Of a DNA stretch of 64,000 nt, positions 14,045 through 18,166 are shown in pieces. Every line of letters starts with the position of its first letter. Within the stretch, counting starts at the first letter, position 1. Under the pieces are notes generated by a model. The model was not told the DNA's origin, made no database searches, and saw only the letters and a list, made by a program, of their open reading frames with translations. The stretch is from Chloroflexota bacterium (GTDB lineage Bacteria > Chloroflexota > Anaerolineae > Anaerolineales > Villigracilaceae). The position numbers were made by a program, and so were the translations under genes. Location of the stretch: NCBI GenBank assembly GCA_021787595.1, contig JAJYLQ010000011.1, forward strand, positions 1 to 64,000, written 5' to 3'.

Positions 14045-17000
14045 ATGACCGAAAGAAAATATACAAACAGAAAATACCTCGATGCCCTCGAAAAGAAAGT
14101 CCTCGTCTTCGACGGTGCGATGGGCACAAGTTTACAAAATCAACATCTCACCGCTGAACATTTCGGCGGCGAACAATATAACGGATGCAACGATTACCTC
14201 GTCATCTCCTATCCCGAAGCCGTGGAAAAAGTCCATCGCTCGTTTCTCGATGTCGGCGTGGACGTGATCGAGACCGACACCTTCCGCTCGAATCGAATCA
14301 CGATGAAGGAATATGGCCTGCAAGACCGCGTCATCGAGATCAACGAAACCGCGGCAAGGTTAGCGCGCCGTTTGGCCGACGAGTACTCCGTTGTAAGGGC
14401 TGACCTAAGTGTCAGCCCTGTAAGTGTCAGCCCAGAAGGCGCACACACAGGTGCGCCCCGACAGCGCTTTGTTGCCGGCTCCATCGGTCCCTCCGGCAAA
14501 CTTCCATCAACGAACGACCCCGAACTTTCCAACGTCAGCTTCGATGAACTCGTTGACGTTTTTCGCGAGCAGGCTGTCGGCCTGATGCGCGGCGGCGTGG
14601 ATATCCTCCTCATCGAAACCTCGCAGGACATTCTCGAAGTCAAAGCTGCGATCACGGGTTGTCACAAAGCCTTCGACGAGACTCAAATTGTTTTGCCGCT
14701 GCAGGCCCAGGTCACGCTCGACACGACGGGACGCATGTTGCTCGGCACCGACGTAGCCGCCGCGCTTGCCATCCTCGAAGGCATGGGCATTGACGTTATC
14801 GGCCTCAACTGCTCCACCGGCCCCGAACACATGCGCGAGCCCATCCGCGTCCTCGGCGAAAATTCCACGCTGCCCGTTTCGTGCATCCCCAACGCGGGCC
14901 TGCCATTGAACGTGGATGGGCAGGCCGTATATCCGCTCGAACCCGAACCGTTCGCGAATGACCTTTATGAATTCGTGACCAAGCACAACGTCCGAATCGT
15001 TGGCGGCTGCTGCGGGACGACTCCCGACCACCTGCGCCTCCTCGTTGACCGCCTCGCCAATTACCAATTACCAATTACCGACCAACCGCTTCATTCGGAT
15101 CCGAAGCTGGCTTCCGCCATGTCGGCGACTCTCATGCGACAGGATCCTCCGCCAACCCTGCTCGGCGAACGATGCAACGCGCAAGGCTCGCGCAAGTTCA
15201 AGAAGATGCTGCTCGAAGAAGATTATGATGGCATCTTGGAATTGGCGCGCGAACAAGTCAACGGCGGCGCGCACGCGTTGGACATTTCCTGCGCGGTCAC
15301 CGAGCGTCCCGACGAAGTTGAGCTGATGCGCAAGGTCGTCAAGAAACTTGAGATGGGCGTGGATGTTCCGTTGGTCATTGACACAACCGAATTGGATGTT
15401 CTTGAAACCGCGTTGAAGACCGCGCCAGGACGATGCTTGATCAACTCGACTCACCTCGAATCTGGCCGCGCCAAAGCCGACAAAGTTTTCAAGTTGGCGA
15501 AAGAACATAACGCGGCTGTGATTTGTTTGACCATTGATGAAAATGGCATGGCGAAGACTCGCGAACGCAAACTTGAAGTCGCCAAACGCATTTACGACAT
15601 TGCCGTCAATGAACACGGACTCAAGCCGGAGGACTTGGTCTATGATGCATTGACCTTCACATTAGCAACCGGTGATCCTGAATTCTCCAATTCAGCCATT
15701 GAAACCATCGAAGGCATTCGACTCATCAAACAAAATCTGCCCGGTGTGATGGCATCCTTGGGCGTGAGCAATCTTTCATTCGGTCTTGCGCCTCACGCGC
15801 GGCCTGTTTTGAACTCGGTCATGTTGTATCACTGCATGCAAGCCGGCCTCGACATGGCCATCGTCAACGCCGCGCAGGTCAAGCCGTATGCCGAGATTGA
15901 CGAAAAGGAACGCGAACTGGCCGAAGATTTGATCTTCAACCGCCGCCCCGACGCGCTCCAGCATTACATCGAGTATTTTGAATCTGTAGGGGCGGACCGC
16001 GTGTCCGCCCAAACCGTTGCCAGCCCCACCGCGGACATGACGCCCGAACAACGTCTGCATTGGGCCATCCTGCATCGCCACAAGGAAGGCGTCGAAGCGG
16101 ATATTGATGAGATTATCAATCGCGGCATTTTCCCTCTCCCTTCGGGAGAGGGCAGGGTGAGGGCCGAATCTTCCTCTCCCGTTGGGAGAGGGAAGGGTGA
16201 GGGCGAAAAGCCAATCAAACACAACCCGCGCCTCCCCGAAGAACTCAAAGGACGCATTCGCGAGTTACGTCAAAACGCCACCGACGCAGAAAAATTGATG
16301 TGGCAGCTTCTTCGCAATCGCGGCGTTCATGATGCAAAATTTCGCCGACAACATCCTGTTGCAGGATTCATCCTTGACTTCTATTGCCATGAAGCAAAGT
16401 TTGGCATCGAACTAGATGGAAGCCAGCACAGTGAAGGCGAGCAAATCAAATATGATGAAGAACGAACAAAGATTTTGCAGGAGCAACATGGAATCAAAGC
16501 AATCAGGTTTTGGGATAGCGATGTGCTGAATAAAACGCAAGATGTACTCAATGTAATTTGGGATGTCTTAGAAGAGAAATTGCCCGCCGCGTCCCTCACC
16601 CCTAACCCCTCTCCCGTAGGAGAGGGGAACTCTGGCTCCCTTCCATCTTCGGGAGAAGAGTCGGGGATGAGGGCGAGCAAACACGAGGTTGCCGTTACCA
16701 TCCTCAACACCGTCTTGCTCCCCGCCATGAAAGAAGTTGGCGACAAGTTCGGCGCGGGCGAATTGATCCTGCCCTTCGTGTTGCAATCCGCGGAAGTGAT
16801 GAAGAAAGCCGTCGCGCATCTCGAAAATTATCTTGAGAAGAAAGAAGGCGTGAGCAAAGGACTCGTTGTGTTGGCAACCGTCTACGGCGATGTGCATGAC
16901 ATTGGAAAAAATCTGGTCAAAACGATTCTCTCCAACAACGGATACGATGTGATTGATTTGGGCAAGCAAGTTCCTGCGGAAAAAATTATTACCAAGGCCG

Positions 17001-18166
17001 TTGAAGTCAACGCGACCGCGATTGGATTAAGCGCGCTATTAGTTTCCACGTCCAAGCAAATGCCGTTGATCGTCAACGAGTTGCATCGCCGCAATTTGAA
17101 GTTCCCGGTGTTAGTGGGCGGCGCAGCCATCAACCGCCGCTTCGGACGTCGCATCCTGTTCGCCGAAGATGGCAGCGCCCATGAGCCGGGAGTCTTTTAT
17201 TGCAAGGACGCGTTCGAGGGACTCGACACGATGGACCAGCTCATCGTCCCGGAGAAGCGCGAAGAGTTATTGATTCAGATCCGCCGCGAGGCGGACCTCG
17301 AGATGGGCCGCGCTTCGCAGGTGCCGGAGCATCGCAAAACGGCGACCCGCTCCCGGGTCCAGCCTGAGCCGATCAATCATCCGCTCAAATGGGGTCCGCG
17401 CGTCGTCAAAGACATGCCGCTGGAAATCGTGTTGAAGCATCTCAGCCTCAATGAGTTGTATCGGTTGTCGTGGGGCGCGAAGAACGCGCACGGCGGCGAA
17501 TGGGAAAGGTTGAAAGCCGAGTTCGATGCGCGCTTGCAGAAGATGACGAAGGATGTATTGCGATTCAAATGGCTCAAGCCGCAGGGCGTTTACGGTTTGT
17601 TCCCGTGCCAATCCGATGGCGATGAATTGATCCTCTACAATCCTGAAACCATTAACTCCGCCTCGCCCGATGAGTTGACACGCTTTGCCTTCCCGCGCCA
17701 ACCGTATGACGATCATCTCGCGCTGTCGGATTATTTCGCGCCAGTTGATTCCGGGAAGATGGATGTGGTCGCTTTCCAGGTTGTAACCGTTGGACAGGAA
17801 GCCACCCAAAAATTCGACGCGCTGCAAGCCAAAGGCGATTACTCTGAAGCCTACTTCACGCACGGACTCGCCGTTCAAGCCGCCGAAGCGACTGCCGATT
17901 ATTTGCACAACCATATCCGCCGCGAACTCAGCATCGGCGAGGAACAAGGCAAGCGTTACTCGTGGGGTTATCCCGCCATCCCTGAACTGGAAGACCACAA
18001 AAAGGTTTTTGGGTTACTGCCCGCCGTCACGACCGAACTCGGCATGAGTCTCAGCTCGGCGTATCAATTGATCCCTGAACAATCCACCGCCGCGATCATC
18101 GTCCACCACAAGGACGCGAAATATTACAGCGTGGGCGAGAGCCGCGTGGAACAGTTGATGAAATAA
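14045..18166 (+). CDS. metH: cobalamin-dependent methionine synthase with in-frame insertions
   Basis: Hcy-binding domain (VLVFDGAMGTSLQ; VGGCCGTTPDHL), pterin domain (LGERCNAQGSRKFKK), B12 domain (VYGDVHDIGKNLVKTIL..NGYDVIDLGKQVP) and activation domain. A DUF559-like domain lies between the pterin and B12-cap regions. Confidence 0.96.
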   Translation: MTERKYTNRKYLDALEKKVLVFDGAMGTSLQNQHLTAEHFGGEQYNGCNDYLVISYPEAVEKVHRSFLDVGVDVIETDTFRSNRITMKEYGLQDRVIEINETAARLARRLADEYSVVRADLSVSPVSVSPEGAHTGAPRQRFVAGSIGPSGKLPSTNDPELSNVSFDELVDVFREQAVGLMRGGVDILLIETSQDILEVKAAITGCHKAFDETQIVLPLQAQVTLDTTGRMLLGTDVAAALAILEGMGIDVIGLNCSTGPEHMREPIRVLGENSTLPVSCIPNAGLPLNVDGQAVYPLEPEPFANDLYEFVTKHNVRIVGGCCGTTPDHLRLLVDRLANYQLPITDQPLHSDPKLASAMSATLMRQDPPPTLLGERCNAQGSRKFKKMLLEEDYDGILELAREQVNGGAHALDISCAVTERPDEVELMRKVVKKLEMGVDVPLVIDTTELDVLETALKTAPGRCLINSTHLESGRAKADKVFKLAKEHNAAVICLTIDENGMAKTRERKLEVAKRIYDIAVNEHGLKPEDLVYDALTFTLATGDPEFSNSAIETIEGIRLIKQNLPGVMASLGVSNLSFGLAPHARPVLNSVMLYHCMQAGLDMAIVNAAQVKPYAEIDEKERELAEDLIFNRRPDALQHYIEYFESVGADRVSAQTVASPTADMTPEQRLHWAILHRHKEGVEADIDEIINRGIFPLPSGEGRVRAESSSPVGRGKGEGEKPIKHNPRLPEELKGRIRELRQNATDAEKLMWQLLRNRGVHDAKFRRQHPVAGFILDFYCHEAKFGIELDGSQHSEGEQIKYDEERTKILQEQHGIKAIRFWDSDVLNKTQDVLNVIWDVLEEKLPAASLTPNPSPVGEGNSGSLPSSGEESGMRASKHEVAVTILNTVLLPAMKEVGDKFGAGELILPFVLQSAEVMKKAVAHLENYLEKKEGVSKGLVVLATVYGDVHDIGKNLVKTILSNNGYDVIDLGKQVPAEKIITKAVEVNATAIGLSALLVSTSKQMPLIVNELHRRNLKFPVLVGGAAINRRFGRRILFAEDGSAHEPGVFYCKDAFEGLDTMDQLIVPEKREELLIQIRREADLEMGRASQVPEHRKTATRSRVQPEPINHPLKWGPRVVKDMPLEIVLKHLSLNELYRLSWGAKNAHGGEWERLKAEFDARLQKMTKDVLRFKWLKPQGVYGLFPCQSDGDELILYNPETINSASPDELTRFAFPRQPYDDHLALSDYFAPVDSGKMDVVAFQVVTVGQEATQKFDALQAKGDYSEAYFTHGLAVQAAEATADYLHNHIRRELSIGEEQGKRYSWGYPAIPELEDHKKVFGLLPAVTTELGMSLSSAYQLIPEQSTAAIIVHHKDAKYYSVGESRVEQLMK
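16128..16676 (+). mobile_element. in-frame DUF559 (Vsr-like endonuclease) insertion flanked by CCTCTCCC palindromes, within metH
   Basis: Reads LPEELKGRIRELRQNATDAEKLMWQLLRNRGVHDAKFRRQHPVAGFILDFYCHEAKFGIELDGSQH..IKAIRFWDSDVLN. Flanks CCCTCTCCCTTCGGGAGAGGG, CCTCTCCCGTTGGGAGAGG and CCCCTCTCCCGTAGGAGAGGGG. Confidence 0.85.

Follow-up and report, generated by a model that had tools for sequence, protein, structure and literature searches.

A palindrome-bounded nuclease-type domain inside methionine synthase is probably a mobile, homing-like cassette

We analyzed a stretch of 64,000 nucleotides (the window) from a Chloroflexota bacterium, in which the gene for the B12-dependent methionine synthase MetH contains a DUF559 domain between two palindromic units. 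It is probable that this segment is a mobile, palindrome-bounded, homing-like nuclease cassette, which remains part of the host protein as an additional domain; its nuclease activity, target, and copying mechanism are inferred. The cassette would be composed of a REP-like hairpin unit, the DUF559 domain, and a second REP-like hairpin unit, and the corresponding features of the window are as follows.

14045..18166, + strand: host gene metH, encoding the B12-dependent methionine synthase (1373 aa with the insert; Pfam PF02574, PF00809, PF02607 (split), PF02310, PF02965)
16129..16203, + strand: left hairpin unit, two hairpins, each with a GGGTGAGGGC tail; translation FPLPSGEGRVRAESSSPVGRGKGEG
16247..16570, + strand: DUF559 (PF04480) nuclease-type domain, in frame with metH; profile and fold matches
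16592..16676, + strand: right hairpin unit, CCCTCACCCCTAACC tail, hairpin at 16606-16627, degenerate second hairpin, GGGGATGAGGGC tail; translation SLTPNPSPVGEGNSGSLPSSGEESGMRA

The MetH ORF has no stop and reads open across the DUF559 segment. A Pfam profile search matched PF04480 at amino acids 735-842 of MetH (E 1.7e-29, 102.3 bits against the curated cut-off of 20.6), which confirms the proposal of the first-pass annotation that a DUF559 domain lies in frame inside metH. The homocysteine, pterin, B12, and reactivation domains of MetH were all present. The cap profile PF02607 was aligned solely from its position 29 on, after the insert, indicating that the insert splits the MetH cap domain in a loop. 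In insert-free MetH homologues, ...VEADIDEIINR runs straight into ...HETAVHTLNNVLLPAMKEVG. The insert had been placed between the pterin and cap domains, but the cap alignment and the homologue junctions locate it inside the cap. In the left flank, the first hairpin is CCCTCTCCC ttc GGGAGAGGG (16132-16152) and the second is CCTCTCCC gtt GGGAGAGG (16173-16191), both followed by GGGTGAGGGC. The right flank starts with the CCCTCACCCCTAACC tail, continues with the hairpin and the degenerate hairpin, and closes with the GGGGATGAGGGC tail near 16675. Palindromes followed by tails had been described for both sides; hairpins are indeed found on each flank, whereas on the right a tail precedes the hairpin. 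The right unit matches the single unit carried by the palindrome-only MetH protein of a related genome (L035). No match to MetE (PF01717) was found in the window's genome (99.6% complete), and thus the window MetH is probably its only methionine synthase. A second variable loop is found in the homocysteine domain of MetH (14387-14500, VVRADLSVSPVSVSPEGAHTGAPRQRF in the window), which is strongly divergent among relatives; the same loop holds the palindrome-coded sequence PALLPKGEGSESSSLTGEGLGVRE in L023.

The window domain was assigned to DUF559/PF04480 of the PD-(D/E)XK superfamily by its score above the cut-off and by the presence of the E, D, and ExDGxxH residues. YcjD, an E. coli relative, was assigned to this superfamily in 2005, and Vsr was found by its profile (PMC1189080). 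In 70 of 70 aligned in-frame copies, the conserved residues E (TxAE), W, R and Q (FRRQ), D (LDF), E/D/H (ELDGxxH), and the following D were intact, where two of these motifs had served as search patterns for the named loci described below, not for the MetH set. One copy (L022) was retrieved in part, and its full translation has the catalytic residues. Since the host protein has no need of catalytic residues, the nuclease function itself seems to be maintained in the in-frame copies. The inserts are under purifying selection as judged by low dN, with dS mostly saturated. In the AlphaFold2 model, pLDDT was mostly 70-87 in the DUF559 part and below 40 in the two hairpin-coded linkers, the left one being a disordered linker in the model; with an overall pLDDT of 64 and pTM of 0.35, no meaning can be given to how the domains are placed relative to one another. 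In a Foldseek comparison, the DUF559 part matched 3hrl (TM 0.84) and, with a TM of 0.80, the I-Bth0305I homing endonuclease domain, while the remainder of the model matched MetH cap and B12 domains. Apart from the nuclease fold, DUF559 contains no recognizable domain for DNA binding.

To quantify the link between DUF559 and palindromes, a hairpin was defined as a pyrimidine-only 7-bp arm and its reverse complement within 45 bp, and 250 bp were searched on each side. Hairpins were detected on both sides of 46 of 66 in-frame DUF559 copies (28 of 44 outside the MetH cap site), compared with 0 of 1011 control ORFs and 0 of 732 random places of the same loci. Free-standing DUF559 genes from other taxa had hairpins on both sides in 13 of 21 cases, and those of the window's own family on both sides in 5 of 30 and on at least one side in 24 of 30. 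The pattern CCTCTCCCN{1,6}GGGAGAGG occurs 172 times in the window's genome as compared with 0 times for the reversed control. The two units are direct repeats in many MetH copies and inverted repeats in most proteobacterial copies, so that the cassette ends differ between the groups. Solo palindromes of the window's genome are also found in frame inside long ORFs (L004, L014, and L015), for example in that of a zinc-dehydrogenase-like protein.

It could be assumed that the hairpin units are mobilized by another transposase, either of the RAYT/Y1 type or acting on MITEs, and that DUF559 is a passenger between two units. In agreement with this, Y1_Tnp genes are present in 117 of 120 genomes of the family, and the window's genome (G000) has a MITE of ~190 bp that carries such a REP-like double hairpin. 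The MITE is present in at least 40 copies at 95-99% identity (L280-L309; outside the window, for example, at C1:140392-140562 and C19:68946-69102), has its own terminal repeats TTACAGCGCAAAGTT / GCGCTGTAA and target duplications of ~4 bp, and accounts for 8 of 15 sampled palindromes. The copy number of the palindromes is therefore weakened as evidence: since many of them belong to an ordinary MITE, their number alone is no proof of DUF559-driven spread. Nevertheless, we consider it unlikely that DUF559 is a mere passenger. Pyrimidine-armed hairpins were found on both sides of 0 of 20 Y1_Tnp genes and on any side of 1 of 20, whereas the DUF559 copies have them, and RAYT was rejected as the mobilizer because the Y1_Tnp genes carry different palindromes. 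The median number of palindromes in the 120 family genomes is 1 without DUF559 and 10.5 with DUF559, values that are not corrected for relatedness, and invariant catalytic residues in every in-frame copy would be unexpected for a passenger. The MetH-occupied genomes have a median of 33.5 palindromes and the empty ones 6, again with no correction for relatedness. The Y1_Tnp (RAYT-like) genes of the family have their own palindrome families, such as GTCGGCTTTAGCCGAC, ACCCCTTCGGGGT, and GGCGGCTCAAGCCGCC, which are unlike those of DUF559 (L253, L256-L272).

When 121 related genomes were searched with a 533-aa MetH region spanning the insert, some gave full-length matches including the insert and many gave two pieces meeting at the site. 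The cap linker of related MetH proteins was empty (for example, VEADIDEIINR-GDFPTKHETAVHTLNNV), contained a palindrome unit alone (in frame in L033, L035, L039, and L041), or contained unit-DUF559-unit. Within the window's genus, DUF559 is present at the MetH site in two genomes, a palindrome remnant in one, and no DUF559 in two. The absence of the insert from sister MetH genes, which the first-pass annotation proposed to look for, was thus observed, the same site being empty or palindrome-only in relatives. In the pairs of empty and occupied MetH, no clear target duplication was identified, though the linker is variable enough to hide one. The cap linkers of L037, L040, L048, L220, L221, L225, and L241 contain other in-frame translated repeats (of the ITNYQLP, QVDTYASTQ, GTGLAPVQGAGASPAPT, and TTDYTDYTDF types), as though this linker were open to short repeats in general.

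The history of the insert was compared with that of the host gene using a MetH tree of 68 rows computed without the linker. DUF559 occupies 21 of the 68 rows, a fraction that is not a frequency because the occupied rows L105, L135, L165, and L175 came from a DUF559-selecting search. The tree requires at least 17 state changes, of which 13 are forced by well-supported branches; shuffled labels gave a mean of 18.3 changes, barely above the 17 seen, indicating no clustering. In the AU test, the DUF559 data rejected the MetH tree (delta lnL 199, p 6e-4), and the MetH data in turn rejected the DUF559 tree. Pairwise identities also disagree: the inserts of L023 and L030 are 84.6% identical and their MetH genes 73.5%, whereas the inserts of L023 and L081 are 71.6% identical and their MetH genes 83.0%. 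The occupancy changes, the mutual rejection of the trees, and these identities indicate that the insert has moved between metH genes independently of the host gene. Homing is the natural reading of such movement, although ordinary homologous exchange could give the same conflict.

On the DUF559 tree, the MetH-cap inserts are mostly nearest relatives of one another (3 changes as compared with 22 when shuffled), and the occupied MetH alleles of relatives share a common insertion position. Both observations would also be expected if a single ancestral insertion into MetH had been inherited vertically with many losses, the tree conflict being caused by ordinary homologous recombination of metH alleles. 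This is quite improbable, since the state changes do not cluster on the MetH tree, the tree conflict is strong, and the same cassette is found in many other genes; in L028, the insert in MetH clusters with helicase and HMG-CoA reductase inserts (support 97). From the many other host genes, the state changes, and the tree conflict, it follows that mobility is needed at least sometimes. A vertically conserved MetH linker domain with no link to palindromes, the alternative named beforehand, was rejected by the occupancy and the tree conflict, and the link to hairpins is strong.

A wider search for DUF559 first covered long open frames from genomes of the family and order and afterwards 80 named loci from GTDB species genomes. 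The first-pass annotation had proposed to look for other palindrome-flanked DUF559 ORFs; in-frame copies with the same kind of palindromes were found in more than 10 unrelated, often essential gene families of Chloroflexota and Pseudomonadota. The hosts include ValS, MetG, HrpA (two positions), HsdM, HsdS, HsdR, HMG-CoA reductase, an aminotransferase, a UvrD-like helicase, a PIG-L deacetylase, an APH-family kinase, and DNA methylases (MmeI-, Eco57I-, and Type-ISP-like), and the MetH of Stagnimonas aquatica has a DUF559 insert at a position different from the cap site. The host domains resume beyond the insert or are divided by it into two segments (as in the aminotransferase, HMG-CoA reductase, and Type ISP hosts). 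The recurrent linker peptides, PSPxGRGAGGEG in the left linker and SPLTPLPxGEG in the right one, are translated hairpin DNA. Among the 80 named loci, 56 are in ORFs longer than 260 aa, a fraction biased upward because the query was built from in-frame copies. On the DUF559 tree, HrpA positions 1 and 2 form one clade, and HsdM is mixed with HsdR. At L002 of the window's genome (G000 C61:28284-31601), palindromes flank a free-standing DUF559 that is located between two reading frames resembling the parts of a formate-dehydrogenase-type gene, the upstream one with a ferredoxin-like part and the downstream one with a TCPYCGVGC start, and this gene may be split by the cassette.

Restriction-modification genes (HsdM, HsdS, HsdR, methylases) are frequent hosts, which together with the conserved active site and the purifying selection judged by low dN might indicate that the fused nuclease has been retained because it serves the host, for instance in restriction, repair, or palindromic-repeat processing, the insertion being incidental. 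This is very improbable in view of the patchy occupancy at one site, the frequent absence in close relatives, and the very different functions of the hosts, such as methionine synthase, tRNA synthetases, and HMG-CoA reductase. Although assembly can go wrong at repeats and metagenome-assembled genomes are the source of many copies, an artefact is unlikely for the window insert because the same in-frame arrangement recurs independently in many genomes, and the joining of a free-standing DUF559 gene to metH through repeats is hardly credible when the frame is kept over both junctions in dozens of independent assemblies, cultured isolates included (Ferriphaselus sp. R-1, Nitrosomonas nitrosa Nm90, Nitrosomonas sp. 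Nm166, Stagnimonas aquatica, and Methylomonas sp. WSC-7).

The probable cassette shares features with several known systems. No Hint family was found among the Pfam matches of the window MetH, in line with the earlier remark that intein splicing motifs are not evident, and the junctions are hairpin-coded variable linkers. No Rfam intron match, group I or group II, was found in 15600-17200, where nothing scored above the gathering threshold and the ORF is continuous. An intein or intron identity was rejected, as there is neither a splicing domain nor an intron RNA. With homing endonuclease elements (inteins, intron-encoded and free-standing HEGs, including that of the EDxHD enzyme I-Bth0305I), the cassette has in common a related nuclease fold, a fixed site in a conserved gene, patchy occupancy, and movement independent of the host gene. 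The MetH insert shows the fixed site, occupied and empty alleles, and host-independent transfer of such elements, the last of which ordinary recombination could also produce. In contrast to these elements, the cassette has no self-splicing protein or RNA, its nuclease remains a domain of the host protein, it is bounded by palindromes, and one family is present in many unrelated genes; homing itself is a proposal here. As in REPINs/RAYTs (PMC3116915), two REP-like hairpin units surround an enzyme gene and many solo units are present in the genome, whereas the cassette enzyme is a DUF559 domain of the PD-(D/E)XK type, not a HuH Y1 transposase, and the cassette is found in frame within genes. No HuH Y1 transposase is linked to the cassette, and the two inverted REPs of a REPIN apply to most proteobacterial copies while many MetH copies have direct ones. 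Rickettsia palindromic elements (RPEs) are likewise palindromic repeats translated in frame within host proteins, and the palindrome-only MetH linkers, which contain such a repeat in frame, look alike in arrangement. RPEs are ~150 bp and carry no enzyme (PMC10969869), whereas the cassette has a complete nuclease domain between the palindromes. No known transposase domain of a classical insertion sequence was found inside the cassette by Pfam. No description of DUF559 with palindromes, mobility, or in-frame insertion was found in the literature covered, outside which most subscription journals lie; the cassette may thus be undescribed, for which such silence is weak evidence.

We propose that such cassettes form a family whose members enter loops of many host genes and preserve the reading frame. 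The cassette would stay in the mature protein with no splicing out, its nuclease domain being held on flexible hairpin-encoded linkers. The DUF559 domain may cut DNA at hairpin-bearing or cognate empty sites, or close to them, and the cassette would then be copied into the cut during repair. Because the inserts cluster by site, the spread would occur mostly by homing between alleles of one gene; new genes would be reached less often, as the groupings of the L028 insert, of the two HrpA positions, and of HsdM with HsdR suggest. In indispensable genes, the copies could persist since the hairpin units are open in most frames and frame-breaking alleles would be lost. Loss of the cassette would leave a palindrome-only or empty linker. 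The hairpin units are probably the cassette ends and may be preferred landing sites as well, because palindrome-only linkers occur at this position of MetH, but recombination between two units would leave one unit behind just as well. The mobile-cassette reading is weakened by the lack of a recognizable DNA-binding domain besides the nuclease fold, the missing target duplication, the differing ends, the palindromes spread by the MITE, and the few free-standing copies of the window's family with hairpins on both sides. The suggestion of the first-pass annotation that a mobile endonuclease element is tolerated in frame in an essential gene is retained as to a palindrome-bounded, recurrent nuclease-type domain that is mobile by occupancy and trees, whereas the DUF559 nuclease is a candidate driver of the movement and the palindromes may be target, ends, or both.

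In E. coli, the DUF559 gene ycjD is located between sapF and fabI and is free-standing, unlike the cassette, which is inside a gene. The repeats downstream of ycjD have a near-same consensus, GGGAGAGGGTTAGGGTGAGGG (L273, L278), and similar repeats are found at a median of 18 places per genome. The sapF-fabI repeats are presumably BoxC. The BoxC family is listed in PMC2267715. A long perfect inverted repeat spans the ycjD start. The presence or absence of ycjD was rejected as a clean empty site, as strains without ycjD have efflux genes (eef) in the interval, which was already known (PMC12817139). We see an even chance that palindrome-bounded DUF559 cassettes of several phyla are translated, non-splicing homing elements that parasitize essential genes, and that the widespread CCCTCACCC/CCTCTCCC repeat family, probably including E. 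coli box C, provides their recognition ends and non-autonomous relics. The position of ycjD beside repeats of near-same consensus in E. coli laboratory strains provides a handle for direct tests. If the homing reading is true, this would be a selfish nuclease that lives in essential genes without an intron or intein. It would provide a natural route for proteins to gain whole domains, and would be a candidate for the origin and mobilizer of those palindromic repeats, a large class in bacteria, that have no link to RAYTs.
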